A stretch of DNA of 64,000 nucleotides, taken from an uncultured Anaerolineae bacterium. Lineage in GTDB: Bacteria > Chloroflexota > Anaerolineae > Anaerolineales > Villigracilaceae. Position 1 is the stretch's first letter. Each line of letters opens with the position of its first letter. The notes beneath the pieces were generated by a model. It saw only the letters and a list, made by a program, of their open reading frames with translations. It made no database searches and had not been told where the DNA came from. The position numbers and the translations under genes were made by a program. This document shows, in pieces, positions 31,074-45,511 of the stretch. The stretch lies in NCBI GenBank assembly GCA_903838415.1, contig CAILYI010000146.1:62001-126000 (forward strand), in the 5' to 3' direction.

Positions 31074-31181
31074 GGTTTACTCCGCTGATACTCAGGTGAT
31101 TTTTGGTGAGCACACAGCAACATTGTACCAGCCACAGCATCAGTGCTTGCCATTTGTGCTTCATCGCACTATACTCAAAGC

Positions 31182-32276
31182 ATGGATCAATCCCATCTTT
31201 ACCAGCAAATCGTCGAATCAATTCGCGCTGAGATTCTCTCGGGTGTGCTCAAACCGGGCGATCCCCTGCCCGCCATGCGCAAACTGACCGAGCAATGGGA
31301 CTGCACCACCGGCACGATCATGCGCGCTTACCAGGAACTGGCCCGCCAGGGACTGGTAATCAGTCATGTTGGTCAGGGCACCAAGGTGGTGGATACGCTG
31401 CCGGAGCAGAATCAAACTCCGTTGCGGCGGGCGACGCTCTTTAATCGCACCGAGTCTTTCCTGCTTGAAATCATGACCGCCGGATACACTCCCGATGAAA
31501 TTGAACAATCGCTGCGCGTGGCGCTCGACCGCTGGCGGACATTCTCCAGCGCACCGGAGCAGCCAGCGCCTGATGTTTTACGCTTTGTCGGCAGCCACGA
31601 CCCGGCCATGGCGCTGATCGCCGCCCATTATCACGAAGTGACCGAAGGCTTTACCCTGCAACTCTCTTTCACCGGCAGCCTGGGCGGACTGATTGCCCTG
31701 GCTGAGAAAAAAGCCGATCTGGCAGGTTGTCACCTGTGGGATGAGAATACCGATACTTACAACGAGCCCTTTGTGCAAAAATTATTGCCGGGACAAAAAG
31801 TAGCGCTGTTGACGCTGGCCCAGCGCCGCGTGGGCTTGATCCTCACGCCGGGAAATCCGCTCGGGGTGCGGGATTTGACGGATCTGGCCCGGGTGGGAAT
31901 CCGTTTCGTTAATCGGCAGCCAGGCTCCGGGACGCGCGTCTGGCTGGATGCCCAGCTCCAGCGCGCGGGCCTCGACCCATCCACCATATCCGGCTATTCC
32001 GACGAAAAAATGACTCATTCCGAAGTGGCGCGCGCCATCAGCAAGGGCCAGGTGGATGTCGGCCTGGGCGTGGAAACCGCGGCGCTGTCCTTCGGGCTCA
32101 ATTTCCAACTGCTGACGACCGAGCGCTACGATCTGGTCATCCCCGCCGAAACATGGGAGATGGACACCGTCCAGGCGCTCAAAGGCTGGCTCGACTCGCC
32201 CCAGGCCAAAACCGCCATCCACAACCTGGGCGGCTACGATACCACCCAGACCGGCACGGTTCACTGGGTTGCGTAA
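31182..32276 (+). CDS. GntR-type regulator with PBP-like ligand domain
   Basis: The ATG at 31182 gives 364 residues. Residues 1-70 form a GntR winged helix (DQSHLYQQIVESIRAEILSG, GDPLPAMRKLTEQW, GTIMRAYQELARQGLV). The C-terminal part is a substrate-binding-protein-like domain (PBP_like) with GSLGGLIALAEKKADLAGCH, GNPLGVRDLTDLARVGIRFVNRQPGSGTR and VDVGLGVETAA. PBP_like domains also occur in MoeA-like and molybdate-related proteins. With XdhC immediately downstream (convergent) and ModAB nearby, a ligand such as molybdate, tungstate or a cofactor is plausible but inferred. The in-frame extension to 31143 is rejected as it lacks family sequence. Confidence 0.85.
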   Translation: MDQSHLYQQIVESIRAEILSGVLKPGDPLPAMRKLTEQWDCTTGTIMRAYQELARQGLVISHVGQGTKVVDTLPEQNQTPLRRATLFNRTESFLLEIMTAGYTPDEIEQSLRVALDRWRTFSSAPEQPAPDVLRFVGSHDPAMALIAAHYHEVTEGFTLQLSFTGSLGGLIALAEKKADLAGCHLWDENTDTYNEPFVQKLLPGQKVALLTLAQRRVGLILTPGNPLGVRDLTDLARVGIRFVNRQPGSGTRVWLDAQLQRAGLDPSTISGYSDEKMTHSEVARAISKGQVDVGLGVETAALSFGLNFQLLTTERYDLVIPAETWEMDTVQALKGWLDSPQAKTAIHNLGGYDTTQTGTVHWVA

Positions 32277-32382: not shown

Positions 32383-33447
32383 TTACAAATTACCACTCGC
32401 CGGCATGCCATGCTTCGCCGAGACCATCTCCGCCAAAATCGACAACGCAATTTCATCCGGCAGCACCGCGCCGATATTCATTCCGATTGGCGCGCGCAGG
32501 CGCCCCAACTGCTCATCGCTCACGCCCAGGTCCCGCAGCGCCGCAAAACGCAGCGGGATTTTTTTGCGCGTCCCCAGCACGCCCACGTAGCGCGCCGGGC
32601 TTTTCAGCGCCACCGCCAGCGCCGGATTATCCAGTTTCTCGTCATGGCTGATGACAGCAATATACGTACCTTCGTCCGGGCGCAGTTTTTCCAGCGCGAT
32701 GGACGGCCAATCGGTCAGCAGTTCATCGACGTGCGGAAAGCGCTCACGCGTGGCAAACGCCTCGCGCGGATCAATCACAATCGTGTGATACCCCAGCGCC
32801 TTGCCCAGCGTTACCAGCGGGATGGCAATATGCACCGCGCCAATCACCACCAGCCGCGAGAGCGGCGCGAACACGTCCACAAACACATCCACCGTTTCGC
32901 CCGCCAGCGTAAAAGCCTTCCAGGTGGTTTCCTGCACGGCGATCTGCGCCTGCATCCACTCGGCAGCCTGTTCATCGAGCGCCGCGCTGCCCAGGCTGCC
33001 GAGCGTGCGCCCGTCCGGCCAGAGCATCAACTTGTTTCCCAGCCCCGCCCCGGCGATGACCGTCGCCACCGCCGCCAGCTGTCCCTGCTCCAGGCAGGTT
33101 TTCAGCGATGGGTAAATTTCAACCCAACCCGGCGATTCCAGCGTCTCGACGAACACATCCAGCGAGCCGCCGCAACTCAGTCCCACTTCCCACGGGTTTT
33201 CGTCACCCACCACGCCATAATGCAACAGTTTCGGCGTGCCGCTTTTCATCACGCCCTGCGCTTCCTCGTACACCACGCCCTCGATACAGCCACCCGTCAC
33301 CGACCCGGCGATTTCCTGCTGGGTGGTCATCGCCATCTTGGCCCCCAGCGGGCGCAGCGACGACCCTTCACGCTTGACATTCGTGGCAATCGCCACCGGC
33401 TTCCCGGCTGCGCGCCAGGCTTCCACTTCCACAAAAACTTCACGCAT
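32383..33447 (-). CDS. xdhC: XdhC/CoxI-family molybdenum hydroxylase maturation protein
   Basis: The start at 33447 follows GCGAGG and gives 354 residues. Family marks are VAIATNVKREGSSLRPLGAKM, EIAGSVTGGCIEG and VGLSCGGSLDVFVE. A C-terminal Rossmann domain follows (LVVIGAVHIAIPLVTLGKALG, YHTIVIDPREAFATRERFPHVDE). XdhC proteins bind molybdopterin cofactor, promote its sulfuration and insert it into xanthine-dehydrogenase-type enzymes. The target here is presumably the aldehyde-oxidoreductase-like enzyme at 40278. The gene overlaps the CoA-ligase-like gene by 8 nt and ends the accessory operon. Confidence 0.92.
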   Translation of the reverse strand: MREVFVEVEAWRAAGKPVAIATNVKREGSSLRPLGAKMAMTTQQEIAGSVTGGCIEGVVYEEAQGVMKSGTPKLLHYGVVGDENPWEVGLSCGGSLDVFVETLESPGWVEIYPSLKTCLEQGQLAAVATVIAGAGLGNKLMLWPDGRTLGSLGSAALDEQAAEWMQAQIAVQETTWKAFTLAGETVDVFVDVFAPLSRLVVIGAVHIAIPLVTLGKALGYHTIVIDPREAFATRERFPHVDELLTDWPSIALEKLRPDEGTYIAVISHDEKLDNPALAVALKSPARYVGVLGTRKKIPLRFAALRDLGVSDEQLGRLRAPIGMNIGAVLPDEIALSILAEMVSAKHGMPASGNL

Positions 33448-34723
33448 TTTGACCTCGCTTGAGCACTCGTTTAAGTAAATTTCCAACTTCGTGTGGATTA
33501 TGGTGGCAGCGCACCACTGTTTTTATGGATGAAACGCCCCGCAGCGCCTGCTCCACCAAACTGGTGGAATCCACGTTGGTCAGCATCTGCGTTTCGACGA
33601 GCAGGGACGCTTCCGCCCCGACTCCTGTCACCGTTACCGAAAAATTGAGCAGCCCCGGTATGGGAAACAACGCCTCGTCAAAATCCGGCAACTTCAGGGT
33701 TTCATCGCCAACGGAGACGAACCCGCTAAAGCGCCCGCGGACTTTTTCCAGCGTCCGCAAGCCGGTCTCACACGGACACTTTCCCGGCACAAACCGGCTC
33801 CGGTCGCCTATCCGGTAGCGGATCAGCGGCATTCCGCGCCGCGTCAGCGTGGTAAAAACCACCTCGCCGTATTCGCCATCCGGCACCGGCTCCCCGCTTT
33901 CAGGGTTGACAATCTCAAAGTACAAATCCGCTTCGCGCAGGTGATAACCGCGGTGGGCTTCACATTCCACGCCGCCGCCCAGGCCCATCTCCGTCGCGCC
34001 GTAGTGATTGAACACTTCGCAGCCCCAAATCCGCTCCAGCTCGCGCACAATCGCCGCCGGGACGTAATCCGTCGAGAGCAGCACCGTGCGCGGCGCCTTG
34101 TTGCGCGGATTCCAGCGCCGCGCCAGTCCCAAAATCTGCGTCGGCGACCCGACCAGGCAATCCGCCTGTTCACGTTCCGAGTTAGTCCCGGTTCCAGCAC
34201 GGGACATCGTTTCCAGGGCATGGTTCGGGTCACGCACCGGCCCATACGGCAGCGGGATTCTATCCTGCCGAGCCAATCCCAGACGAAGCAAATCGCCCAC
34301 ACTGCCGGGCGTTTCACCGGGCAAAAAAATCAGCACCCGCTCCCCCGGCTCCGTCAGCGTGGACATGCCCGCCCCGAAAAAGTCGATGGTCAGTTCCTGG
34401 TCCTCCGCGGTGAAATAAATCCGCTTGGGTTCGCCGGTTGTCCCCGAACTTTGCAGCGTCACCACGCGCCGAATCTCATCCTGCGAGACGCACACAAACC
34501 GCAACGGATTCTCACGCACGTCCTCCGGCGTGGTGAACGGGAACTGCCGGAAATCCGCCAAATTCTCCAGTTTTTCAGGCATTCCGGCCAAATGTTTGCG
34601 GTAAAACGCACTTTTGCCGCGTGCCAAGGCCAGTGTTTCATTCAACTTCAACAACTGCCAATCGGCAAGGTCGCTGGCGAATGTTTTTTGTTTAATCCAG
34701 GGGTCAAGTGACGTGAGTTTCAT
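33440..34723 (-). CDS. AMP-dependent CoA-ligase-like protein (DVU_1553 type)
   Basis: The 427-residue protein resembles phenylacetate-CoA ligase. It has the AMP-binding loop LQSSGTTGEPKRIYFT, GCEVFNHYGATEMGLGGGVECE, and GMPLIRYRIGDRSRFVPGKCPC before the mobile C-terminal domain. Such enzymes adenylate a carboxylate and form a thioester. In this setting, between a radical SAM protein and XdhC, it matches the family I recall as DVU_1553 AMP-dependent CoA ligases, which accompany aldehyde-oxidoreductase-type molybdenum enzymes. It might activate the acid produced by the oxidoreductase, but that is conjecture. Its start lies within the end of the radical SAM gene (20-nt overlap). A short GC-rich repeat is inserted at 34182-34205. 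Confidence 0.85.
   Translation of the reverse strand: MKLTSLDPWIKQKTFASDLADWQLLKLNETLALARGKSAFYRKHLAGMPEKLENLADFRQFPFTTPEDVRENPLRFVCVSQDEIRRVVTLQSSGTTGEPKRIYFTAEDQELTIDFFGAGMSTLTEPGERVLIFLPGETPGSVGDLLRLGLARQDRIPLPYGPVRDPNHALETMSRAGTGTNSEREQADCLVGSPTQILGLARRWNPRNKAPRTVLLSTDYVPAAIVRELERIWGCEVFNHYGATEMGLGGGVECEAHRGYHLREADLYFEIVNPESGEPVPDGEYGEVVFTTLTRRGMPLIRYRIGDRSRFVPGKCPCETGLRTLEKVRGRFSGFVSVGDETLKLPDFDEALFPIPGLLNFSVTVTGVGAEASLLVETQMLTNVDSTSLVEQALRGVSSIKTVVRCHHNPHEVGNLLKRVLKRGQNA
34182..34205. repeat. Short GC-rich repeat, copy A
   Basis: TAGTCCCGGTTCCAGCACGG on the plus strand matches, in opposite orientation, the copies at 37455-37477 and 39864-39887. In the minus-strand CoA-ligase gene it is read as residues SRAGTGT before NSERE, an apparent in-frame insertion. 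Confidence 0.6.
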
Positions 34724-36065
34724 AGGCTTTCCGATACAGCGAGCGCCCTTGCCGGTCCGTCAAGTTGTAAGCGCAGAACGGCACCAGGCGTCCATCCGGG
34801 CTGGCGGTGTGGATGTAGCAGTCGCGCAGACGATCCAAGTCGAGGGTCCAGGCGTCCTGAAAGGCCATCCCGGAGACGCAGAAGGTGTGGGTGCGCTTGC
34901 GTTCGAGAAAGACATCCCATTCGCCAAAACTCGGCCCACTGATAACGGAAAGGCTCGTCGCGGGCGTTGACCAATGCTCGGCCACAAATTCACGCGAGCG
35001 GGCTGCCCCCTCCGCCGCCGGGACGGGCTGACAGCACGACTCGCCTTGATGGCGGGTGAGTGGCTTGAGCGCGCCATCCGGCATCAGTACATAGTTGCCG
35101 TGGAAGGAACACAGCGCGTTCTCCCCGCCGGGCGGACACAGCGTCGCTACGGGAATCAGGCCGCCGGTTTGGGTTTCGATGGCGCGGATCACTTCCGGGA
35201 TGGTGATGCGCCTTTCGTCGGTGGGCGGCTCAGGATAGCGTCCAAAATAACTGACCGGCTGGAAGTTCACACCTCGCACCGTCGGCATGTGACTCAGCGC
35301 CAGTTTCAGAATTTCGCCAATATTGTCGGTGTTGACGCCCGGCACGAGCGTCGGCACCAACACCACGCCGATACCCAGGCTGGCGCAGTTTTCGATGACC
35401 GCCATTTTCTTTTCGAGCAATTCCCGCCCACGAATGGCGCGGAAAATTTCGTCGCGTGTGCCGTCAAATTGCAGGAAAACCGTCGAAAGCCCGGCATCCT
35501 TGAGTTCGGCCAGGTACGGTAAATCGCGGGCAATCCGCAGGCCATTGGTGTTCAACTGGAAAAAGGTAAAGCCATACGAGCGCCCAATGCGGATGATTTC
35601 GGGCAAATCGTCACGGACGCACGGCTCGCCGCCCGAAAGCTGGATGTTGAACGGCCCGCCCGCTTCCAGCAGTCGTTGGAACCAGGCGCGGATTTCGGCG
35701 TAGGTCAGGTCAGGCGGAGGGCAGTTCGCCGCATCCGCAAAGCAGACCGGGCAATGCAAATCACAGCGCTGCGTTACTTCGAGCAGCACGCAACAGGATT
35801 GCTGTTCATGCTCGGGGCACAAGCCGCAGTCAAACGGACAGCCCTGCCGCACTTCGGTGAACGGATTTTTGGGATACGAAGGGGTTTTGGGACGCACCCA
35901 GCCAGAGAAAGCCGGGATTCCGCGCCAGATGATGGTCTTAAAATGCCCGTGTTCGGGGCATTCCTTTTCGAGATAGACGTCCTCGCCATATTGCACCCGC
36001 GCGGCGGGGATGCGGGCGAGGCAGTCAGGGCAAACACTCTCTGTTGTCGAGAGAATTTCAGCCAT
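34704..36065 (-). CDS. trsS: Radical SAM protein of the molybdenum hydroxylase accessory locus (TrsS-like)
   Basis: The 453-residue protein has a radical SAM CxxxCxxC motif, Cys101, Cys105 and Cys108 (RCDLHCPVCFA), with LSGGEPCVRDD downstream. It also has cysteine pairs before the core: CPDC (12-15), Cys36, and CPFDCGLC (76-83) followed by CC at 91-92. This cysteine-rich N terminus and the gene context fit the family I recall as radical SAM (seleno)protein TrsS. Here all sites read as Cys and no in-frame TGA suggests selenocysteine. The reaction is unknown. It lies between the C-GCAxxG-C-C gene and the CoA ligase, whose start it overlaps. Confidence 0.88.
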   Translation of the reverse strand: MAEILSTTESVCPDCLARIPAARVQYGEDVYLEKECPEHGHFKTIIWRGIPAFSGWVRPKTPSYPKNPFTEVRQGCPFDCGLCPEHEQQSCCVLLEVTQRCDLHCPVCFADAANCPPPDLTYAEIRAWFQRLLEAGGPFNIQLSGGEPCVRDDLPEIIRIGRSYGFTFFQLNTNGLRIARDLPYLAELKDAGLSTVFLQFDGTRDEIFRAIRGRELLEKKMAVIENCASLGIGVVLVPTLVPGVNTDNIGEILKLALSHMPTVRGVNFQPVSYFGRYPEPPTDERRITIPEVIRAIETQTGGLIPVATLCPPGGENALCSFHGNYVLMPDGALKPLTRHQGESCCQPVPAAEGAARSREFVAEHWSTPATSLSVISGPSFGEWDVFLERKRTHTFCVSGMAFQDAWTLDLDRLRDCYIHTASPDGRLVPFCAYNLTDRQGRSLYRKAYETHVT

Positions 36066-36097
36066 TATCGTTCAAGCCTATAAAACGAACTACCACC

Positions 36098-36185
36098 CCA
36101 CATAAAAACGCGGGGCAAGCGCCCGCAAAGCGCACGAAGTTTAAGAAGGTTTTCCTTTGCGTTCTTTGCGCCCTTCGCGGTTCGA
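36098..36185. repeat. Imperfect palindromic intergenic element
   Basis: The interval contains CGCAAAGCGCACGAAG, then AAGG-TTTT-CCTT, then GCGTTCTTTGCGCCCTTCGCGG, which fold back imperfectly. Its right half resembles that of the hairpin at 32312-32365 (shared CCTTTGCGT-(T/C)-CTT), suggesting a dispersed element family. Confidence 0.5.
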
Positions 36186-36194
36186 TGATTTTTA

Positions 36195-36647
36195 TTATGC
36201 ATCTTCCAACCCCGAAAGGTCATAGCCGTTTTCCACCAATAATTCCTTGACCTTCTGGAGCACGCCCGTCACCAAAATCGGACAGCGCGTGGCCTGATTC
36301 TGGCTGTTTCCGGCCAAAATCTCCTCACAGCGGATGCCGCCAAACTGCTCGCTATACTCGGCCTTGAACCACTTGACCAAATCCTGCACCATAAAATCGA
36401 GACGCGGGTCTTCGAGCTGATCCGACGTACCTTTGCCAGCGTACAGCCCCAGCAGGGATGCGCCGCCGGTCAACGCGCCGCACAGCTCGCCCGAAAAACC
36501 CAATCCACCCGCCAGCCCATGCATGGCGCGGATCAGTTCCGGGTTGCTCTTGCCCATCTGTTCCAGCCCTTGCAGCATCAGGATTTGGCTGCAATAAAAA
36601 CCCTGACGGCGCAAAACCATTAATTGTTCAAGTTCATCATTCATCAT
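36195..36647 (-). CDS. C-GCAxxG-C-C family protein (DVU_1555 type)
   Basis: The 150-residue protein has the family cysteine pattern: Cys19 in GFYCSQILM, Cys56 in GELCGALTGG, Cys107 in IRCEEIL and Cys122 in TRCPILV. The central box is CGALTG rather than GCAxxG. Such proteins are thought to bind a metal or cluster through these cysteines and are often found beside redox or radical SAM genes; their reaction is unestablished. It starts with two Met codons just after an AAGGTGA site. It sits between the methyltransferase and radical SAM genes, the position of DVU_1555 in the Desulfovibrio locus as I recall it. Confidence 0.87.
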   Translation of the reverse strand: MMNDELEQLMVLRRQGFYCSQILMLQGLEQMGKSNPELIRAMHGLAGGLGFSGELCGALTGGASLLGLYAGKGTSDQLEDPRLDFMVQDLVKWFKAEYSEQFGGIRCEEILAGNSQNQATRCPILVTGVLQKVKELLVENGYDLSGLEDA

Positions 36648-36666
36648 TCACCTTTTCCCAGACAGT

Positions 36667-36756
36667 AGGGGCGACCCGCTCCGGCCAGCGTGAACACATT
36701 TAAGCAAAAAATCCTTGCCAGCCGTGACGCTGATTATGCCCGGAAGGGTCGCCCTT
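36667..36756. repeat. Intergenic inverted element AGGGGCGACCC
   Basis: AGGGGCGACCC (36667-36677) and GGGTCGCCCTT (36746-36756) form imperfect complementary ends of an interval of about 90 nt between the methyltransferase and C-GCAxxG-C-C genes. The right end overlaps the methyltransferase stop codon. A related pair occurs at 40133-40221. Confidence 0.5.
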
Positions 36757-37510
36757 ACCGTTGCGCCACCAGCACGAAATATCCCAACTTCGCCCGGCTG
36801 ATGGCGATTTGCAGATCAAACGGATTCGCCTGCGGCTCAGATTTGCTCCAGAACTCGTTCAGCGAGCCGTGTGCCAGGATCATCTGCGCGGCGATGGTTT
36901 TCAGCGTTTCGGAGTGGTCTTCCCAGGCGACGATTTCAAAGCCATGCGCCCGGAGCTGCGCCGTCAATTCGGCTTGCGTCAGCGCCTCGCGCATACCACA
37001 GCTGAAAGGCAGCGCCCGCAAGGCAGGCAATCCTTCCGGGTTGCGGACGTAGAGATCGCTGACCGAGAGCCGCCCGCCGGGGCGCAGCACGCGCCAACAT
37101 TCCGCCAGCACCGCATCCAGGTCGGACATGGTCGACAGGCTGCATTCTGCCAGGATGGCGTCAAACTGACCGGAGACCAGGGGCAGAGATTTGCTCCAGC
37201 CGCACAAAACCGGCAGGGACGGAGCCGACATCTTCCCGGTTTGAAGCAGCAGTTCGGAGCGGTCCAGGCCGACAGCACGGAAACCCACCTCCAGCAGGGA
37301 GTCAACCGTCGAGCCGGTGCCGCAGCCCAAATCCAGGATGTGTGCTTGAGCGGGTAAATCTGCCAGCGTCAGCATCCGCTCGGTCAAATCCACACCGCCC
37401 GGACGCAGCTGCCCGCCAGTCACCCGGCTGAGCACGCCGTTTTCATATCCCGTGCCCCGTACTGGAACCGGGACTACTTCGCTGAAACCGGGACTACCGC
37501 GCATCGTCAC
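36755..37510 (-). CDS. trsM: SAM-dependent methyltransferase of the accessory locus (TrsM-like)
   Basis: The 251-residue protein is a class I methyltransferase with motif I LDLGCGTGSTVDSLL, AVGLDRSELLL, FDAILAECSLSTMSDLDAVL and the post-II stretch WRVLRPGGRLSVSDLYVRN. The context, between the two-CxxC mini-protein and the C-GCAxxG-C-C gene, fits the family I recall as DVU_1556/TrsM. Its substrate is unknown. Its start overlaps the mini-protein gene by 4 nt (ATGA). The first 25 residues (GSPGFSEVVPVPVRGTG) derive from two copies of a short GC-rich repeat, so the N terminus may be a recent extension. Confidence 0.88.
   Translation of the reverse strand: MTMRGSPGFSEVVPVPVRGTGYENGVLSRVTGGQLRPGGVDLTERMLTLADLPAQAHILDLGCGTGSTVDSLLEVGFRAVGLDRSELLLQTGKMSAPSLPVLCGWSKSLPLVSGQFDAILAECSLSTMSDLDAVLAECWRVLRPGGRLSVSDLYVRNPEGLPALRALPFSCGMREALTQAELTAQLRAHGFEIVAWEDHSETLKTIAAQMILAHGSLNEFWSKSEPQANPFDLQIAISRAKLGYFVLVAQR
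37455..37498. repeat. Short GC-rich repeat, copy B (one full, one partial)
   Basis: CCCCGTACTGGAACCGGGAC (from 37455) and the partial CTGAAACCGGGACTACC (from 37482) are tandem copies of the element also present at 34182 and 39864. They encode the N-terminal GSPGFSEVVPVPVRGTG of the methyltransferase. Confidence 0.6.
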
Positions 37511-37719
37511 TTATCCTCCAGCGCCTTCTCAACTTCGACCATTTTGCCGAGCGCCAGTTCTTCGGGGACGAAAACCAGGCCGCAGCCGGGACATTTGAGC
37601 AGTTCCACCGGGAAGGAATTGCCCAGGTAAGAAACATCCACATTTCCGGGCACGAGCGGCTGGCCGCAATCGGCGCAGGCCCAGCCCTGATAAGCGGAAA
37701 GGTCAACATACTGGCTCAT
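37507..37719 (-). CDS. Two-CxxC small redox/zinc protein (DVU_1557 type)
   Basis: The start at 37719 gives only 70 residues with two cysteine pairs: CADC (15-18) and CPGC (43-46), the latter in VELLKCPGCGLVFVPEEL. This spacing suggests a zinc ribbon or rubredoxin-like iron site. It overlaps the FAD/Fe-S oxidoreductase gene by 4 nt at its start and the methyltransferase by 4 nt at its end, so it is tightly coupled to both. In the order of the locus it takes the place of the DVU_1557 redox protein. Electron transfer or metal handling is inferred only. An upstream in-frame extension to 37806 lies inside the neighbouring gene and is rejected. Confidence 0.85.
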   Translation of the reverse strand: MSQYVDLSAYQGWACADCGQPLVPGNVDVSYLGNSFPVELLKCPGCGLVFVPEELALGKMVEVEKALEDK

Positions 37720-40109
37720 TTTTGCGCTCCCATGCCAATTTCCATGCGGTGACTGTAGGCGCGGTGCACCAAAAACGCGCCATCCACCGGCGTGTACTCG
37801 ACCCAATAGGTGACGCTGGTGGGCTTGTAATAGGCCAGGTAGTGTCCACTGGCGGCGCTGAACATGCGCTTGCCGGTGCGCTCGGCATATTCGAGCACTT
37901 TTTGCATGTCTTCCACCAAAATCAGGCGGTCTTCCACCATTTGCTGCACATCCTCGGGCAAAATCAAGCGGATTTTTTCAAATTCAGCGCCTTCGGGCAT
38001 GGTTTCACTCCATAATTCTCGTAAAAGTTTTTCTTTCAGCCGCGCGCGGTTTTCGTGACGCTGTGAAAAGCCGACAGGCGAGGCGGTTGTTGAGCCTGTC
38101 GAAACATCACCATAGATTAAATCTAACAAATGCAGCGTGCGTTTGCCGCGCCGCGCAAAAAAGTCGCGGCACATGGCGCAGTAGGTCACATAATCGAGCG
38201 GACTTTCGTTAATGCGGTGCTGCACCATTTTTTCGGCAACCGGCTTGTTCGCCAGCCACAGCACGCCGCCGTACGAACAACACTCGGTTTTTTCGCGGCT
38301 GTTGACCAGTTCATCCACTTCACAGCCCAGTTTTTTCAGGATGTTCCGGACTGAATCCTGGATACCGTTTTCGTAGCGCGTCGAACAGGGATCATGTACC
38401 GTTAGCGGGGCGGGAAATTCCCGCGCCGGTAACTGCAGAGGCCCAAGCTGGTCATACAACTCCCAGAGTGAGACAATCTCCACATCTGGATAATGTTTCT
38501 GGAATACCTGATAACAGCTTGAACAGGCCAGCACCACCTTCGGTTTACCCAGTTTCTCATACTCAGCGCGGAATTCCGCCTGTGAATTGGCAAAGACTGC
38601 CTGGCGCCCGGCCCAATCGGCAGGCGCGCCACAGCAGCGCAGCATCAGCCCCACGTTTGGGAGTTTCTCGCGCAGGAACGCGTAGGCTTTTTCGACATGC
38701 TCCGGCGACGAACCGCTCAGCTGGCAGCCGGGGAAAAACACATATTCCGACACCGCGACGACGGGGGCGTTCCTGGCCAACGCAAATTTTTCCCCGTTGG
38801 AAAACGCCATATCCTGCAAGGCAAAATCATGCGCCGAGGCGGGCATGCGCTTCTGCTCCACCATCGTCACGCGCGCATCGTGGCAGACTGCGCCCATATC
38901 CACATCCGTCGGGCAGATTTCGGCGCACAATCCGCACAACGCGCAGGAATTGATGAACTGATTGGAGTGGCGCGTGCCCATCACAATCGAAAGATTGTTA
39001 TACACCTCGCGGATGTATTTCTTGGGATATCCTTTGTAATGGCTGAGATACTCGCAGTTCTTGACACACTCCAGGCACTCGCACTGGATGCAGCGCGCCG
39101 CTTCGGTTTCAGCCACTTCGCGGCCGTAGCGGGTGGATAAATCGGCAGGGAACAGTGTAGTTTGGGGAGCAATTCCGTCTGTGTTGGTGTAAAGGCGGGT
39201 TTCGTAGGCGCCTTCGTTGCTGCGCGAAGCCGTCAGCGAGACTTTTTGCAGGAAGCGGTCGATCGAAGTGGCGGCGCGGCGTCCATCCGAAATGGATAAA
39301 ACCGCTGAACGCCTGATTTCTCGCCCGGGTGCCTGGACAGATACCCTTAATACATCGCCCCCAGCGAAAACTTTTTCGAGGCTGGTCTGAAAGGTGAGCG
39401 GATCAACCTGCACCTGACCGTTGGCGTCCAGCTGGAGATCAGGAATGTCCGTGGAATGAGCGCCAATCCCTAGAAAGACGGCGTCATATTCCTCGCATAG
39501 CCGCGCCAGGAAGGTGCTGTGCCCGTTACCGCCGCTGCGGCCCACGCTTGAATTCAGGCGGATGTCCACGCCCAGGGTTTCGATCACCTTCAGGTCGTTG
39601 ACCAGCACCTCGCGCGGCAGCAGATCAGGCGGACTCTGCCACAATCCACCGCCCAGCCGGTCGCTGGCCTCGAAAATCACCACGCCCCAGCCTTTGCGCG
39701 CCAAATCGTGCGCGACAGTTAATCCGCTGATGCCCGCGCCGATGACTGCCACCGTTTTCGACTTGCGCGGCAGCGCCTTAATGGCTTCAGCGTCCGCAGA
39801 ACCAAATTCCAGCGCAGCCCGTTCCAGCGCGGCGATTTCGATCGAGCCGCCCAAATCCTTTCGCCCCGTGCCGGAACCGGGACTACCTCGCAGGCAGGTC
39901 AACTGGCAGGGTTGGTCACAAATCCGGCTGACGATGCCGGGAAACGGCACCGCCTTACGGTACAACTTATACGCGGCGGCAAAATCCCCTCTGGCGATTT
40001 CCGCTGCCAGTCCACGCGCATCCACATGCGCCGGGCAGGCAGCGGTGCAGGCCGGAGCCTGTTCCTGGATACAACGATTTTCCTGTTCGCGCAGTTGTTT
40101 TTGATCCAT
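37716..40109 (-). CDS. FAD/Fe-S oxidoreductase with HdrB-like CCG domains (DVU_1558 type)
   Basis: The start at 40109 gives 797 residues. Domains in order are: a glutamate-synthase/dihydropyrimidine-dehydrogenase-like Fe-S helical domain (Cys13, 21, 25, 64, 68, 72), a FAD-binding Rossmann fold (VAVIGAGISGLTVAHDLARKG, about 120-140), a dicluster ferredoxin region (CIQCECLECVKNC, CALCGLCAEICPTDVD), and two cysteine-rich CCG domains. The last are RCCGAPADWAGR with ACSSCYQVF, and TECCSYGGVLWLANK with TYCAMCRDFF, which resemble heterodisulfide reductase subunit HdrB. It would carry electrons between a pyridine nucleotide or flavin and a disulfide or quinone-like acceptor, perhaps for the molybdenum hydroxylase. 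A GC-rich repeat encodes residues 75-82. Confidence 0.88.
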   Translation of the reverse strand: MDQKQLREQENRCIQEQAPACTAACPAHVDARGLAAEIARGDFAAAYKLYRKAVPFPGIVSRICDQPCQLTCLRGSPGSGTGRKDLGGSIEIAALERAALEFGSADAEAIKALPRKSKTVAVIGAGISGLTVAHDLARKGWGVVIFEASDRLGGGLWQSPPDLLPREVLVNDLKVIETLGVDIRLNSSVGRSGGNGHSTFLARLCEEYDAVFLGIGAHSTDIPDLQLDANGQVQVDPLTFQTSLEKVFAGGDVLRVSVQAPGREIRRSAVLSISDGRRAATSIDRFLQKVSLTASRSNEGAYETRLYTNTDGIAPQTTLFPADLSTRYGREVAETEAARCIQCECLECVKNCEYLSHYKGYPKKYIREVYNNLSIVMGTRHSNQFINSCALCGLCAEICPTDVDMGAVCHDARVTMVEQKRMPASAHDFALQDMAFSNGEKFALARNAPVVAVSEYVFFPGCQLSGSSPEHVEKAYAFLREKLPNVGLMLRCCGAPADWAGRQAVFANSQAEFRAEYEKLGKPKVVLACSSCYQVFQKHYPDVEIVSLWELYDQLGPLQLPAREFPAPLTVHDPCSTRYENGIQDSVRNILKKLGCEVDELVNSREKTECCSYGGVLWLANKPVAEKMVQHRINESPLDYVTYCAMCRDFFARRGKRTLHLLDLIYGDVSTGSTTASPVGFSQRHENRARLKEKLLRELWSETMPEGAEFEKIRLILPEDVQQMVEDRLILVEDMQKVLEYAERTGKRMFSAASGHYLAYYKPTSVTYWVEYTPVDGAFLVHRAYSHRMEIGMGAQK
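39864..39887. repeat. Short GC-rich repeat, copy C
   Basis: CCCCGTGCCGGAACCGGGAC (from 39864), continued by TACC, is the third copy of the element. On the coding strand it gives GSPGSGTG between CQLTCLR and RKDLGG of the FAD/Fe-S oxidoreductase, directly after the last N-terminal cluster cysteine. Confidence 0.6.
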
Positions 40110-40132
40110 AGAATTTCCGCCAATGAAAATGA

Positions 40133-40221
40133 AAGGGCGACCCTTCGAGGCCATCTGGTGCAATGTTACGCCAGATTCTTTCGCCAGACAAGACGAAATT
40201 TTAGCCCGGTGGGTAGCCCCT
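40133..40221. repeat. Intergenic inverted element, second copy
   Basis: AAGGGCGACCC (40133-40143) and GGGTAGCCCCT (40211-40221) are near-complementary ends like those at 36667-36756. The interval separates the aldehyde-oxidoreductase-type gene from the accessory operon. Confidence 0.45.
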
Positions 40222-40232
40222 ACAGCTGATTC

Positions 40233-40264
40233 AAAAGGGGAGCGTCCGTTGACGAACGCTCCCC
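40233..40264 (-). terminator. Terminator after the molybdenum hydroxylase gene
   Basis: GGGGAGCGT (40237-40245) and ACGCTCCCC (40256-40264) form a perfect 9-bp stem with extra pairing inside. On the minus strand it is followed by TTTTG. It should partly separate the hydroxylase transcript from the accessory genes downstream. Confidence 0.82.
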
Positions 40265-40277
40265 TGGGTTGAAAAGA

Positions 40278-43007
40278 TTACGCGGGCTGCAGGGCCTTCA
40301 GTCCAGCCAACACCTTGTCGGGGCGGGCGGGCAAATGGCGGATGCGCACACCAGTCGCGTTGTAGATGGCGTTGATGACCGCCACATGCGGCGAGGTCAG
40401 CGGGAGTTCACCCACACCAGCGGCGCCGAACGGGCCGTGTTCGCGGGCATTCTCAAAGTAGTGGATATCGAACTTGTCGGGGATATCCTTGGCGTAGGGG
40501 ATGCCAGCGCCCAGCATGGTGCTGTGCTTGTCGATATCCTCGAAGTCTTCGGAGAGCGCCAGACCAATACCCTGCGCCACACCACCGTAAATCTGACCAT
40601 CGACGACCAGTTTGTTGTTGATCTTGCCGATGTCGGCCATGACGGTCATGCCCTCAACCGTGGTCTTGCCGCTCTTGGTATTGACATTGACTTCGGCCAG
40701 GAAAGCGCCGTACATGTAGACGGCGAAGGGGTTACCCTGACCGTTCGCATCGCAGTTGGAGTTCATCGAAGCGGCCCACTTGCCGGTGTAGCGCAGTTGA
40801 GCGCCAGCGGCGACCATTTCATCGTAGCTTCGGAAGCTGCCATCTGGTTTGGTCATGGCGGCGATCAGTTGTTCGCAACCGTTCTTGATGGCGTTGCCGG
40901 TCACAACCTGGCTGCGGGAGCCGCCCGAAGGACCGCTGTTGGGGGCCAGGCCGGTATCATTCATGACCAGTTTGATCTGGGTCGGGGCGATGCCGAGCGG
41001 GCGCAGGGCTTCGTGAGCGGTGCCCAGGGTGCCCATATCCGCGCCCTGGCCGTGATCCTGCCAGGTGTTGTAGACAGTCACGCCGTCTTTGGTCAGTTCA
41101 ACGTCAGCTTCAGCGCCGTCCACGCCGTCCAGACCGCAGCCATAGATACCGATGGTGACGCCGACGCCCTTCTTGTTTTCGGGAGTCGATTCACGGGCGG
41201 CTTTCTCTTTGGCTTCCTTATAAATCGGGCGCAGTTTTTCAAGCATTTCGGGCAGGGAATAGACTTCGGGGTCCTGTCCGGTGGGGGTGGTGGAGCCGGG
41301 GCGATAAGCGTTGATATAGCGGAATTCGAGCGGGTCCATGCCCATTTTTTCCGCGAGTTCATCCACCAGGCTTTCAGAAGCCAAGAAGGACTGCGGGGAA
41401 CCATAAGCGCGGAAGGCCGAGCCCCAAACATGGTTGGTGGCGACGGTGCGGCCGCGGCCACGGATGCTGGGGATGTTGTAACCAGCGCCGATGTACTGCG
41501 CGCCGCGCAGGGTCAGCAGATCGCCAAATTCGGAGTAGGGGCCGTGGTCGACGATGTAATCGTGTTCCATCGCGATGATCTTGCCATCTTTGTCGGCGGC
41601 CATCTTGATATCCAGCCAGAACGGCGAGCGTTTGCCGGTGTACTGCATGTACTGCTGATAATCGTATTCCAGGTAAACCGGGTGTCCGGTGGCGATACAG
41701 GCTGCACCGAGCAGGGCTTCCATGGTCGGGCTGAACTTGTAGCCGAAGGTGCCGCCAGCCGGGTTCTGGACCAGGCGCAGTTTTTCGGGTTCAACGCCCA
41801 GGCCGGGGGCGATCATGTACAGGTGCAGGTACAGGCCGATCGATTTGGAGTGAATGGTCAGGCGGTCTTGTTCATCGTAATAGGCAAAGCCCATATCCGA
41901 TTCAATCGTCAGATGGGGCTGGCGCTGCAGATAGAAGCTATCGCTGACGACGTAGGGCGCCGATTCCATGATGTCTTTGGTATCGGGACCCTTGGCAATC
42001 TTCTGTTCGAAGTAAATGTTGGGGGTGCCGGGGTGGATTTCGATGGCGTCATCAGCCATGGCGGCCGGAGCGCTCATATAGGCGGGCAGTTCTTCCAATT
42101 CCACTTTGACTTTTTCAGCGGCGGCCTTGGCCTGCTCAATGGTATCAGCGCAGACAATGGCAATCGCGTCGCCGTACTGGAAGACCTTGGTGTCGCACAG
42201 AATCGGGCGATCCCAGCCATCACCCTTGTTGGTCGGGAAGGTGATCAGGCCGGTGATGCGGTTCTTGCCTTTAACATCCTTGTGGGTGACGACTTTGAAG
42301 ACGCCGGGCATTTTCTCGGCTTCGGAGGTATCAATCGAGAGAATATTGGCGTGCGAGACCTTGGCCTGCACCAGCGCCAGCTGCAGGGTGTCGGATGGCA
42401 TTTTCAGGCCCAGATCCTGTCCAAAGTCCAACGTGCCGGTGACTTTGCCAACCGCGGTCGGGCGTGGATATTTTCCGCCCCAAATTTTGCCGTCGGCGGG
42501 GAGTTTGTATTCCAAATCATCGAGCTTCATCTCGCCGCGCATGACCTTGCCGGCTTCCATAATGGCGTCCACAATCGGTTTGTAACCGGTGCAGCGGCAG
42601 GCGTTGTGATGCTTGGTCAGCCAGTCACGGACCTGTTCGCGGGTCGGGTTGGGGTTGCTGTCCAACAGGGCCTTGGCTGAAACAACCATGCCAGGGGTGC
42701 AGAAACCGCACTGAGCCGCGCCGAACACCGCAAATGCAACCTGGATCGCGTGCATTTTTTCGGGGGTGCCAATGCCTTCAACAGTGACGATGGAGGCGCC
42801 ATCCGCAACTTTGCTCATCTTGGTCACACAGGCCAGGGTGAGTTTGCCATCAACAATGACCGAGCAGGCGCCGCAGTGTCCATCATTGCACGACACTTTC
42901 GTGCCGGTCAGGAGCAGTTGCTTGCGCAAAACATCAGCCAGGCTGACTTCGGGATCAATAATCAATGATTTGCTGACCCCATTTATGACGAGCGACTTTT
43001 TTAACAT
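40278..43007 (-). CDS. Aldehyde-oxidoreductase-type molybdenum hydroxylase (single chain)
   Basis: The start at 43007 follows CGGAGG and gives 909 residues, close to the 907 of Desulfovibrio gigas Mop. The plant-ferredoxin cluster ligands Cys40, 45, 48 and 60, and the second cluster ligands Cys100, 103, 137 and 139, are at the same positions as in Mop. The molybdenum domain follows, and GVGELPLTSPH supplies the catalytic Glu (Glu867, equivalent to Glu869). There is no FAD domain, as in Mop, so electrons must leave through a partner. It hydroxylates aldehydes or related compounds using the Mo-cytosine-dinucleotide cofactor. It heads the accessory gene series and lies beside molybdate uptake genes. 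Confidence 0.95.
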   Translation of the reverse strand: MLKKSLVINGVSKSLIIDPEVSLADVLRKQLLLTGTKVSCNDGHCGACSVIVDGKLTLACVTKMSKVADGASIVTVEGIGTPEKMHAIQVAFAVFGAAQCGFCTPGMVVSAKALLDSNPNPTREQVRDWLTKHHNACRCTGYKPIVDAIMEAGKVMRGEMKLDDLEYKLPADGKIWGGKYPRPTAVGKVTGTLDFGQDLGLKMPSDTLQLALVQAKVSHANILSIDTSEAEKMPGVFKVVTHKDVKGKNRITGLITFPTNKGDGWDRPILCDTKVFQYGDAIAIVCADTIEQAKAAAEKVKVELEELPAYMSAPAAMADDAIEIHPGTPNIYFEQKIAKGPDTKDIMESAPYVVSDSFYLQRQPHLTIESDMGFAYYDEQDRLTIHSKSIGLYLHLYMIAPGLGVEPEKLRLVQNPAGGTFGYKFSPTMEALLGAACIATGHPVYLEYDYQQYMQYTGKRSPFWLDIKMAADKDGKIIAMEHDYIVDHGPYSEFGDLLTLRGAQYIGAGYNIPSIRGRGRTVATNHVWGSAFRAYGSPQSFLASESLVDELAEKMGMDPLEFRYINAYRPGSTTPTGQDPEVYSLPEMLEKLRPIYKEAKEKAARESTPENKKGVGVTIGIYGCGLDGVDGAEADVELTKDGVTVYNTWQDHGQGADMGTLGTAHEALRPLGIAPTQIKLVMNDTGLAPNSGPSGGSRSQVVTGNAIKNGCEQLIAAMTKPDGSFRSYDEMVAAGAQLRYTGKWAASMNSNCDANGQGNPFAVYMYGAFLAEVNVNTKSGKTTVEGMTVMADIGKINNKLVVDGQIYGGVAQGIGLALSEDFEDIDKHSTMLGAGIPYAKDIPDKFDIHYFENAREHGPFGAAGVGELPLTSPHVAVINAIYNATGVRIRHLPARPDKVLAGLKALQPA

Positions 43008-43224: not shown

Positions 43225-43770
43225 ATGTCCCCAATGGTAAGACGTCCGCCCGGAATCGAACTGGCCCTGCTGGGATTTTTAAAGCAGGGGCCTCAGCATG
43301 GATATCAGATTCATCTGCTGCTATCTGACTCTGAAGGATTGGCGCCGATCTGGCATCTGAAACAAAGTCAGCTATACGCGCTGCTGGCCAAACTGGAAGA
43401 TGATGGTTACACCTGGGGCGTGCTGCAGCCGCAGGATGCCGCCCGCCCGCCTCGCCGGGTATTTCATCTCACCCATGAAGGACAGACCGCTTTTCAGAAA
43501 TGGCTGCTTTCCCCCGTTAATATGCCGCGTCTGATGCGCCAGGAATTTATGGCCAAGTTGTATTTTGCGCGTCAGGATGGCCCGGAAAAAACCCGCGCTT
43601 TACTGGCCTTGCAGTACAGCACCTGTCAGAAGTGGCTGGATACGTTTTCCGCGGAAATAATCCCACCAGACTCTTTTCACCAGACGATTCGCCAGTATCG
43701 TATCGGCCAAATCGAGGCCACCCTAGCCTGGCTGAAGCAGTCACTACCCGATTCGTCGGAAGCTCAATGA
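43225..43770 (+). CDS. PadR-family regulator 1
   Basis: The 181-residue protein has a PadR winged-helix domain (ELALLGFLKQGPQHGYQIHLLL, LAPIWHLKQSQLYALLAKLEDDG, and a wing in PPRRVFHLTHEGQTAFQKWL). A C-terminal helical dimerisation region with TCQKWLDTF follows. PadR proteins are mostly repressors of nearby transport or catabolic genes. It diverges from the molybdenum hydroxylase gene and converges on modB with a 7-nt overlap, so it probably controls the molybdenum genes and itself. Confidence 0.92.
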   Translation: MSPMVRRPPGIELALLGFLKQGPQHGYQIHLLLSDSEGLAPIWHLKQSQLYALLAKLEDDGYTWGVLQPQDAARPPRRVFHLTHEGQTAFQKWLLSPVNMPRLMRQEFMAKLYFARQDGPEKTRALLALQYSTCQKWLDTFSAEIIPPDSFHQTIRQYRIGQIEATLAWLKQSLPDSSEAQ

Positions 43771-44588
43771 TGCTGCTGACTCTCGTCCAGTTTTCTCATT
43801 ACCCCCAGCAGAATCAACGAGACCAGTACCAGCACAACTGAAAGCACGACCGCCACATCCAGGTTGCGCTCAAAGCTGAGGTAAATTGCCAGCGGCATGG
43901 TCTGAGTCACCCCTTCCAGGTTGCCAGCAAACAAAATCGTCGCGCCGAATTCGCCCAAAGCGCGCGTCCAGGCCAAAATCGCGCCGCTGATCAGCGCCCG
44001 GCCAGCCAGCGGAAACATGACCAGGGTAAACATCTGCACCTGGGTGGCGCCTTCGACGTGCGCGGCCTCCTCCAACTGCGGATCAATGCTGGCAAACCCA
44101 ATTCGCGCCGAGCGGACGAAAAGCGGCGCGGAGACAAACGTCTGGGCGATGACTACCGCCGCGGTGGTGAAGGGCAGCTGGATCCCGAGGGCATCCAGCC
44201 AGCCGCCGAACAAACCACGGCGCCCGAAGGCGATCAACAGCGCCAGGCCAGCCACGGAGGGCGGCAGGACGACCGGCAGGTCGAGCAACAGTTCCAGCGC
44301 GGCGCGGCCCGGAAATTCCCAACGCGCCAGGATGTAGGCCAGCGGCGTCCCAATCAGCAGGGAAATGGTCAGGCTGATCAGGCTGGTGACCAGGCTTAAT
44401 TGAAGCGCCGAAAGCGCTGTCTCCGAAAGGGCATAACCGAAAAAGTCTCCACCGGCGGCGCGCAGGAAAAGCGCCAGCAGCGGTAATCCAAGCAAAAGGA
44501 CGAGCAGCAGTCCGGGAATAACAAACAGCCAGTCAGACTGGCTGTTTGGAGTAACAATGCGGTGAATGGAGGAGCGGCGCAGGCGCAT
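43764..44588 (-). CDS. modB: Molybdate ABC transporter permease ModB
   Basis: The 274-residue membrane protein has a CysTWA/ModB-type permease core with about six helices: LSLVTSLISLTISLLIGTPLAYILARWEFPGR, LLLDLPVVLPPSVAGLALLIAFGRRG, and the ATPase-contact loop LEEAAHVEGATQVQMFTLVMFPLA. GAILAWTRALGEFGATILFAG is diagnostic for ModB/CysT. It follows modA by 4 nt. No modC ATPase gene is next to it; its 3' end overlaps the converging padR1 by 7 nt. Molybdate is the expected substrate, with tungstate possible. Confidence 0.93.
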   Translation of the reverse strand: MRLRRSSIHRIVTPNSQSDWLFVIPGLLLVLLLGLPLLALFLRAAGGDFFGYALSETALSALQLSLVTSLISLTISLLIGTPLAYILARWEFPGRAALELLLDLPVVLPPSVAGLALLIAFGRRGLFGGWLDALGIQLPFTTAAVVIAQTFVSAPLFVRSARIGFASIDPQLEEAAHVEGATQVQMFTLVMFPLAGRALISGAILAWTRALGEFGATILFAGNLEGVTQTMPLAIYLSFERNLDVAVVLSVVLVLVSLILLGVMRKLDESQQHH

Positions 44589-44592
44589 GCAG

Positions 44593-45444: not shown

Positions 45445-45511
45445 GATTTTTCTCCTTCTCAAAAGAATATGAAAACGGTTGTTTCAGGCGGTCAAAACAA
45501 ATTTCATATTT

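Follow-up and report, generated by a model that had tools for sequence, protein, structure and literature searches.

Accessory systems of the YqeB/YqeC kind belong to selenium-dependent molybdenum hydroxylases. The molybdenum aldehyde oxidoreductase (Mop) of Desulfovibrio gigas, the subject of 40 years of structural and spectroscopic work, carries molybdopterin cytosine dinucleotide (MCD) and needs no sulfido ligand; in a 1.28 Å structure the metal centres were very well defined, as were the pterin rings, and its in vitro electron acceptor is flavodoxin (PMC10223205; all papers are cited here from excerpts). MJ0619, a relative of the radical S-adenosylmethionine (SAM) enzyme TrsS treated below, was reassigned from pterin methylase to tetraether synthesis (PMC9433317). 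Here we analysed a stretch of 64,000 nucleotides (the window) from an uncultured Anaerolineae bacterium (contig CAILYI010000146.1, positions 62,001 to 126,000), in which the listing of open reading frames (ORFs) placed eight minus-strand ORFs that fill positions 32383–43007: Mop, an FAD/Fe-S oxidoreductase (B), a DVU_1557 family mini-protein (C), the methyltransferase TrsM (D), a C-GCAxxG-C-C protein (CGC, E), TrsS (F), a PaaK-like ligase (G) and XdhC (H). It is well supported that these genes belong together as a single, widely conserved gene set of anaerobes, centred on a molybdenum enzyme that oxidises aldehydes. The core of the set also travels with a tungsten enzyme of an unrelated family, and this suggests a small, so far undescribed pathway more than a cofactor-building toolkit.

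An earlier note on this DNA had described eight colinear genes here and had named for them the TrsS, TrsM and DVU_1553/1555/1557 families; all eight ORFs were present at its coordinates, and an NCBIfam and Pfam search bore the families out, the curated NCBIfam cut-off being exceeded by seven of the eight proteins. These were Mop (NF045668, 1658 bits, cut-off 1100), B (NF045663, the dicluster family, 1018 bits, cut-off 530; Pfam Fer4_20, Pyr_redox_2, Fer4_17 and CCG), the DVU_1557 protein (NF045645, 104 bits, cut-off 60), TrsM (NF045667, 232 bits, cut-off 155), CGC (NF045669, 164 bits, cut-off 103), TrsS (NF045646, 688 bits, cut-off 490) and the ligase (NF045666, 448 bits, cut-off 300). The exception was XdhC, which has the Pfam XdhC domains and reached 207 bits of the 350 required by NF045664, the XdhC-related AOR maturation factor. 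The host looks from its sequence like a member of the Anaerolineae (Chloroflexota), as the note had thought likely: the closest TrsS relatives are from Anaerolineae, the nearest of them from a metagenome-assembled genome (MAG) and 91% identical over the best segment. The source genome is available as a draft with 98.99% completeness and 8.63% contamination.

Conservation of the gene order was assayed in the neighbourhoods of TrsS relatives. A scan with the TrsS proteins of the window and of locus L011 as queries gave 503 confirmed relatives, the best 80 of which were taken as loci L042–L121, a sample that leans toward close relatives of the query, and profiles of all eight window proteins were used to scan these 80 loci, L040 and the window. 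Sufficient flank (at least 7.5 kb before and at least 1.5 kb after TrsS) was available in 55 of the 80 loci, and the exact order Mop-B-C-D-E-F-G was found in 43 of them. Within the 55 loci Mop was present in 52, B in 54 (L118 being counted by the C-terminal domain alone), DVU_1557 in 54, TrsM in 53, CGC in 52, the ligase in 53 and XdhC in 37. The 12 loci departing from the order comprised those with Mop inverted nearby (L050, L051), CGC moved (L071, L078, L087) or missing (L088), D and E swapped (L101, L102), the ligase missing (L104), and reduced sets (L108, L109, L118). The taxonomy labels of the tree rows were Chloroflexota, Bacillota, Thermodesulfobacteriota, Myxococcota, Acidobacteriota and one Pseudomonadota MAG, so the tabulation upheld the earlier suggestion that the order is conserved across phyla.

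The genes found most often beside the set, identified from one or two members per cluster, included a DVU_1551 MocA-HD protein merged with a CobC-like histidine phosphatase (c0, 37 loci), a MoCF_biosynth protein preceding Mop (c1, 17 loci), a cysteine-desulfurase-like protein (c5, 10 loci; its single scored member reached 340 bits, cut-off 377) and a DUF4213/DUF364 protein, often between Mop and B in Chloroflexota (c4, 10 loci). All but c4 are expected helpers of an MCD enzyme (PMC2997495). Fusions of the MocA-type gene were also read, to an HD domain beside the CobC-like phosphatase in L059 (13695–15439) and to YqeC in L047 (12312–13703). AOR genes near L071 and L102 fell in the same sequence cluster and were rejected as partners, Mop being present in both loci; the gene of L102 is closest to true AORs.

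Presence profiling extended this association to whole genomes. The taxonomic orders are named here after one named member each, and kinship among the sampled genomes keeps them from being independent. In the order of Salidesulfovibrio (L097; 120 genomes) Mop exceeded the cut-off in 67 genomes and TrsS in 63, with both in 62, Mop only in 5, TrsS only in 1 and neither in 52 (Fisher 6e-27, overstated because kinship is ignored); a sub-cut-off TrsS running off its contig (G376) was left out of the counts. Broken sequence accounts for most of the mismatches: the contig ends inside B in G386 and G390 and inside Mop in G388, TrsS is spread over three frames in G393, and in G328, the genome with TrsS only, Mop lies in two pieces on two contigs. 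Within the phylum of the window (301 genomes) TrsS and Mop each exceeded the cut-off in 2 genomes, together only in the window genome, with TrsS alone in G121 and Mop alone in G264. The TrsS loci without Mop or running off a contig (L108, L109, L114–L118) and G121 were followed up in their whole genomes, with the genomes of L082 and L097 as positive comparisons. Mop was over the cut-off elsewhere in all six genomes of L108, L109 and L114–L117, and was absent from the whole genomes of G121 (L040) and G301 (Geobacter argillaceus, L118). In the order of G. argillaceus (141 genomes) TrsS was found in 30 genomes (29 over the cut-off) and Mop in 19 (17 over the cut-off), all 19 of which carry TrsS. 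These results, with the order kept across phyla and Mop and TrsS nearly one to one in the Salidesulfovibrio order, also where unlinked, lend good support to the earlier proposal of one functional unit co-occurring with Mop-type enzymes.

Some copies stand apart from this arrangement. In L040/L041 (G121, Chloroflexota) a divergent, reduced core of CGC, Bct (the C-terminal domain of B), DVU_1557, TrsM, TrsS and ligase was read, with a large subunit of the xanthine dehydrogenase (XDH) family about 16 kb away on the same contig. L186 and L187 hold second Mop copies from the Salidesulfovibrio order with no profiled accessory genes within their 15 kb stretches, and the copy of L187 adjoins an AOR-family gene. 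In Desulfovibrio sp. An276, B and DVU_1557 are joined in a single ORF of 906 aa without the LEDK tail at its end (L135, 4359–7076), and TrsS and the ligase lie on a separate stretch (L115).

The set was then located around the crystallised enzyme itself. Among 348 genomes searched, a 206-residue stretch of the D. gigas protein matched G402 at 100%, and the identity of G402 as D. gigas rests on that match. Its locus (L178) has the order MoCF-Mop-B-C-D-E-F-G-H, followed by part of c0. The Desulfovibrio vulgaris gene numbers used here come from the earlier note, family names and paper tables, the genome compared being D. gigas-type and not D. vulgaris. Because a D. gigas-type operon is complete and the published enzyme carries MCD (PMC10223205), the product of such an operon has, as published, an ordinary cofactor, which favours a pathway built around the enzyme over a cofactor tool. 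It is possible that a modification was lost on purification, or that the set has a reactivation role.

The earlier view of a set reserved for a molybdenum hydroxylase was not supported, since in Geobacter relatives the core stands without Mop beside BamB-2. For this comparison 29 loci were taken, one per TrsS genome of the G. argillaceus order besides G301. In eight genomes the core genes adjoin an AOR-family enzyme (G301/L118, G665/L214, G684/L218, G685/L216, G693/L217, G698/L213, G701/L207 and G750/L208). Sequence reading and an NCBIfam match had first labelled this partner a canonical AOR; a PDB search replaced that label with a BamB paralogue, the enzymes of L118 and L217 being closest to BamB, which is the tungsten-bearing subunit of benzoyl-CoA reductase (1005 and 999 bits to 4Z3W), and those of the other six loci 86–99% identical to the L217 protein. 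The names bamB-2 and bamC-2 follow the literature, and in Geobacter metallireducens a putative molybdenum-cofactor gene lies near bamB2 (PMC1924859, PMC2996986). L217 reads BamB-2, BamC-2 (Fe-S), a Bct-DVU_1557 fusion, then TrsM, CGC, TrsS and ligase; BamC-2 was also read in L118, where MoeA follows it before the core and no CGC match was obtained. MoeA is likewise present in L214, which has no CGC match; L207 has no ligase match, L213 has two sets, and L208 has neither a CGC nor a ligase match, with TrsM and one c0-profile match on strands opposite to TrsS. XdhC was not seen in any of the eight stretches, and the FAD/Fe-S part of B is missing from these cassettes. In five loci BamB-2 is preceded at close range by a small ORF that matches the N-terminal ~45 residues of the AOR/BamB profile (L118 3079–3279, L214 15723–15923, L207 15009–15230, L216 15044–15274, L217 4596–4937).

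Mop is absent from seven of these eight genomes, and in G750 it lies about 12 kb from BamB-2. Further genomes with TrsS and without Mop were G764 (BamB-2 and core on different contigs), G737, and G674 and G714, whose XdhC-bearing sets are cut by contig ends. When BamB-2 was defined by at least 86% identity to the L217 protein, a line set after the gap between 86% and 71% had been seen, it was found in 11 genomes, 9 of which carry TrsS. In the genomes with only other BamB copies, classed solely by identity to the L217 protein, TrsS was found in 1 of 14 (G735, which also has Mop; p = 2e-4 for the comparison of the two groups, overstated because kinship is ignored). The best match per genome is 65–71% identical to BamB-2 in 13 of the 14. 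In a quick TrsS tree all ten rows from genomes with BamB-2, among them L219 of G764, formed one group (SH-aLRT 95). The core thus follows BamB-2 and not the other BamB copies, about two-thirds identical in most genomes. XdhC and MocA-type genes go with Mop, and the BamB-2 operons proper lack them but retain the core. Both patterns argue for a pathway rather than a cofactor tool.

The conservation alignments, which hold 3–5 repeated rows per family (the contigs of L095/L195, L100/L194, L103/L202, L104/L200 and L119/L197 being present twice), indicated that catalytic and metal sites are kept in the core proteins. TrsS (301 bits to 7TOL) keeps the mapped ligands C12/C15/C36/H39, C76/C80/C83/H86 and C101/C105/C108 of tetraether lipid synthase (Tes) in 98–100% of 110 rows; these cover the rubredoxin site, N-cluster and SAM cluster, the C-cluster cysteines falling outside the residue-by-residue mapping. 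Its M400 (99%) aligns with the labile Tes Met439, and Tes Tyr459 falls on Thr420. The column of cysteine or selenocysteine (Sec) is Gly in the window and holds C 39, G 24 and A 11 among 82 rows, with an in-frame TGA at this column in L120; neither residue is required for the NF045646 family score. A pterin methylase role of TrsS was dropped because of the reassignment of MJ0619 (PMC9433317). Among 103 distinct rows of the ligase, 97 have the C-terminal Lys418 and the remaining 6 have gaps there, and Cys254/His261/Cys316/Cys318 are invariant (106/106 rows); the idea of a degenerate ligase was rejected because of the conserved lysine. In TrsM, Glu122-Cys123 is invariant (96/96 rows, 92 distinct) and Cys63 nearly so. 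CGC has four invariant cysteines and a confident, almost all-helical model with no PDB fold match at E<=0.001. The DVU_1557 protein, which looks like a zinc ribbon, keeps four cysteines in 98–100% of 99 rows, and [LM]E[DY]K forms the very C-terminus of 94 of the 96 distinct sequences (LEDK 90, MEDK 3, LEYK 1), the exceptions being L136 (unread bases in the stretch) and L135 (fused to B, different end). In each of the eight BamB-2 loci Bct and DVU_1557 are fused in one ORF (nine copies, 164–188 aa between stops), Bct is a stand-alone ORF in L040, and the whole of B is joined to DVU_1557 in L135 and L180, the L180 genome having broken frames. An AlphaFold model of the L118 fusion gave a confident Bct (mostly pLDDT 83–94) and a loosely predicted C-terminal helix, with no PDB match at E<=0.001; a weak likeness of Bct to RelE-type toxins (TM-score by target length ~0.5 for the best of them) was not used.

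Our leading, still tentative explanation is that the operon encodes a small processing pathway around a pterin enzyme, here Mop; gene content, order, co-occurrence, the exchange of molybdenum for tungsten enzyme and the retained mapped catalytic and metal sites are observed; the substrate, the direction and each reaction are inferred. Aldehyde/carboxylate redox is the chemistry that both the Mop and BamB enzyme families are known for (see PMC13328260). These two unrelated families occupy one slot, and the shared step would be that redox. The pterin enzyme would carry out one aldehyde/carboxylate step, with XdhC, and in relatives the MocA-type and cysteine-desulfurase-like genes, maturing the cofactor of Mop itself, and B conducting its electrons via FAD, 4Fe-4S and HdrB-like centres. 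The portable core of Bct-DVU_1557, TrsM, CGC, TrsS and ligase would act on the same metabolite: the ligase may activate the carboxylate as acyl-AMP, next giving a thioester or amide, TrsS may abstract hydrogen from an unactivated carbon and join C-C or C-S by tetraether-synthase-like chemistry, TrsM would methylate, and the Cys-rich small proteins may carry electrons or an intermediate. The formation of CoA esters and the coupling to thiol/disulfide chemistry that the earlier note had raised are possible.

Several observations weigh against this pathway. G312, the single real Mop-only exception of the Salidesulfovibrio order, has a 19 kb stretch (L179) without the set, G121 (L040) has the core without Mop or a recognised partner, and D, E and G are each absent from some loci. 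The BamB-2 genomes G675 and G703 show no TrsS, and since the TrsS sequences of BamB-2 genomes form one group, a single exchange that was then kept is enough to explain the pattern. BamB itself acts by reducing an aromatic ring and not an aldehyde (PMC13328260), which makes an aldehyde step common to Mop and BamB-2 a guess. The MoeA, XdhC and MocA neighbours fit maturation equally, and in L207 yqeB and mocA lie on the opposite strand, about 7 kb from TrsS.

In the strongest rival, the pyranopterin cofactor, or else the polypeptide of Mop or BamB-2, would be built, modified, inserted or repaired by the unfamiliar genes. XdhC, MocA-HD, MoCF and cysteine-desulfurase-like genes adjoin the set, MoeA lies between BamC-2 and the core in L118 and is present in L214, yqeB and mocA lie near the L207 core, and both partners contain a pyranopterin (PMC13328260, PMC10223205). 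We nevertheless consider this account unlikely: a D. gigas-type operon has the full set while its enzyme has MCD at 1.28 Å with no sulfido need (PMC10223205), TrsS does not follow the other BamB copies (13 of the 14 genomes with only such copies lack it), and the pterin-methylase assignment of MJ0619 was not upheld (PMC9433317). Cofactor building or repair, one of the functions that the earlier note had offered, is therefore now the weaker reading.

More doubtful is an electron-transfer or redox-support chain, in which B, DVU_1557 and CGC would link Mop or BamB-2 with NAD(P)H or a disulfide, and TrsS, TrsM and the ligase would make a carrier. The FAD, dicluster and CCG domains of B, the single ORFs joining Bct to DVU_1557 (nine copies, eight loci) or B to DVU_1557 (L135, L180), and the invariant or nearly invariant cysteines of DVU_1557 and CGC are in its favour, but the BamB-2 cassettes lack the FAD/Fe-S part of B, D. 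gigas Mop hands its electrons to flavodoxin in vitro (PMC10223205), and DVU_1557 is zinc-ribbon-like. In a separate and rather improbable reading, DVU_1557, alone or fused to Bct, would be a protein-bound carrier, its LEDK tail being where a novel prosthetic group, or a redox carrier derived from a peptide, is attached by the ligase or modified by TrsS and TrsM, for use by both XDH-type Mop and AOR-type BamB-2. Least probable is that the set is a catabolic branch by which anaerobes degrade an aldehyde or acid, aromatic or long-chain, and in which TrsS and TrsM tailor an unusual substrate. The PaaK-like ligase and the 23.6-fold induction of bamB2 on benzoate in G. metallireducens (PMC1924859) favour this reading; against it, no degradation gene cluster was found among the commonest neighbours of the 80 loci, for which only the commonest clusters were identified.

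The features of the locus are collected in Table 1. The start of Mop is the ATG at 43007, with GGAGGA upstream, and the starts of XdhC and B are chosen ATGs. Starts overlap preceding stops, as had been described before, at four of the seven junctions (B/C 4 nt, C/D 4 nt, F/G 20 nt, G/H 8 nt); gaps of 168 (Mop-B), 107 and 129 nt lie at the remaining three. The gap between Mop and B holds a strong hairpin (76-nt fold of −37.3 kcal/mol vs −21.2 ± 2.9 for shuffles, z −5.5), which was not on the list from a pattern scan. Given this hairpin, Mop and the accessory genes may differ in expression level; the hairpin is a possible partial terminator and might set the ratio of enzyme to helpers. The flanking genes recur in relatives, the window included: the PadR-type regulator (c3) in 10 loci, the GntR + PBP_like regulator (c6) in 9, and transporter-type genes in 9 (c7) and 6 (c10). 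ModB and ModA scored 208 bits (TIGR02141, cut-off 183) and 158 bits (TIGR01256, cut-off 62.5). The MobA-like DVU_1551 gene is, as the note had remarked, absent from the window locus, and elsewhere in the same genome only sub-cut-off matches were obtained (best 127.8 bits, cut-off 315).

Table 1. Features of the Mop locus and its flanks in the window
Feature	Position	Strand	Evidence
Mop, molybdopterin-dependent aldehyde oxidoreductase, 909 aa (2x[2Fe-2S] + molybdenum cofactor (Moco) domains)	40278..43007	-	NF045668, Pfam domains
Hairpin in the Mop-B gap, 13 pairs, then TTTGAAT	40236..40265	-	folding of 76-nt context
B: FAD/NAD(P) (GltD-like) + 4Fe-4S dicluster + two CCG (HdrB/D-like) stretches + Bct	37716..40109	-	NF045663, Pfam
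Bct, ~95 aa C-terminal domain of B	37716..38009	-	elsewhere own ORF or DVU_1557 fusion
C: DVU_1557 family (DUF7479), CxxC...CxxC mini-protein, LEDK end	37507..37719	-	NF045645
D: TrsM, DVU_1556 family class I methyltransferase	36755..37510	-	NF045667
E: DVU_1555 family C-GCAxxG-C-C (CGCAxxGCC, CGC) protein	36195..36647	-	NF045669
F: TrsS, radical SAM enzyme, tetraether-lipid-synthase kind	34704..36065	-	NF045646; 7TOL match
G: DVU_1553 family, PaaK-like AMP-forming ligase	33440..34723	-	NF045666
H: XdhC-type Moco maturation factor	32383..33447	-	Pfam XdhC_CoxI + XdhC_C
GntR + PBP_like regulator, convergent with XdhC	31143..32276	+	Pfam PF00392, PF12727
PadR-type regulator, divergent from Mop	43225..43770	+	PF03551
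Molybdate transporter permease ModB + binding protein ModA	43764..45462	-	TIGR02141, TIGR01256

In the literature searched, no description of the reactions of the unfamiliar members was found, in agreement with the earlier note; TrsS appeared with 'radical SAM' only as a line of a selenoprotein table (PMC13188914), and of DVU_1551–1559, DVU_1559 appeared in tables of two papers and DVU_1558 in a single mention. The textbook enzyme D. gigas Mop is apparently encoded in an operon whose genes accompany Mop across phyla, and this operon is unmentioned in the excerpts of the review of that enzyme (PMC10223205). Should BamB-2 be served by the core as well, molybdenum and tungsten enzymes of sulfate reducers, acetogens, metal reducers and Chloroflexota would have an undescribed chemistry in common, and genetically tractable hosts would be at hand for finding the true substrate of the enzyme.

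Collectively, the locus compares with the known systems as follows. Like the YqeB/YqeC systems, it has MocA/XdhC-type helpers near an XDH-family enzyme, and relatives show the YqeC-MocA fusion of L047 and yqeB + mocA near L207, whereas the window enzyme reaches 452 bits of the 830 required for selenium-dependent xanthine dehydrogenase (TIGR03311) and the other accessory genes differ. The window ligase belongs to the same sequence family as the PaaK-type phenylacetate-CoA ligases and shares a conserved C-terminal Lys and Cys/His set, but lies below the cut-offs of PaaK (TIGR02155, 126 of 646 bits) and F390 synthetase (TIGR03335, 65 of 459 bits). TrsS resembles Tes/GDGT-MAS (MJ0619, 7TOL) in the rubredoxin site, N-cluster, SAM cluster and Met439 equivalent, and differs in scoring below the Tes cut-off (NF045702, 355 of 450 bits) and in having Thr420 for Tes Tyr459. 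The Geobacter BamB-2/BamC-2 loci share core genes of the window type beside BamB-2 in eight genomes, whereas their enzyme is an AOR-family tungsten enzyme and that of the window an XDH-family molybdenum enzyme, no XdhC is seen, Bct is fused to DVU_1557 and the FAD/Fe-S part of B is missing. The D. gigas operon differs in its host, that of the window being a chloroflexotal one, in its MoCF and DVU_1551 genes, which the window locus lacks, and in XdhC, which in the window scores below the NCBIfam cut-off; it shares with the window the enzyme family, the closest solved structure of the window Mop being 1SIJ/1VLB (1416 bits, residues 2–904), and, apart from c1, the gene set and its order, c1-Mop-B-C-D-E-F-G-H at L178.

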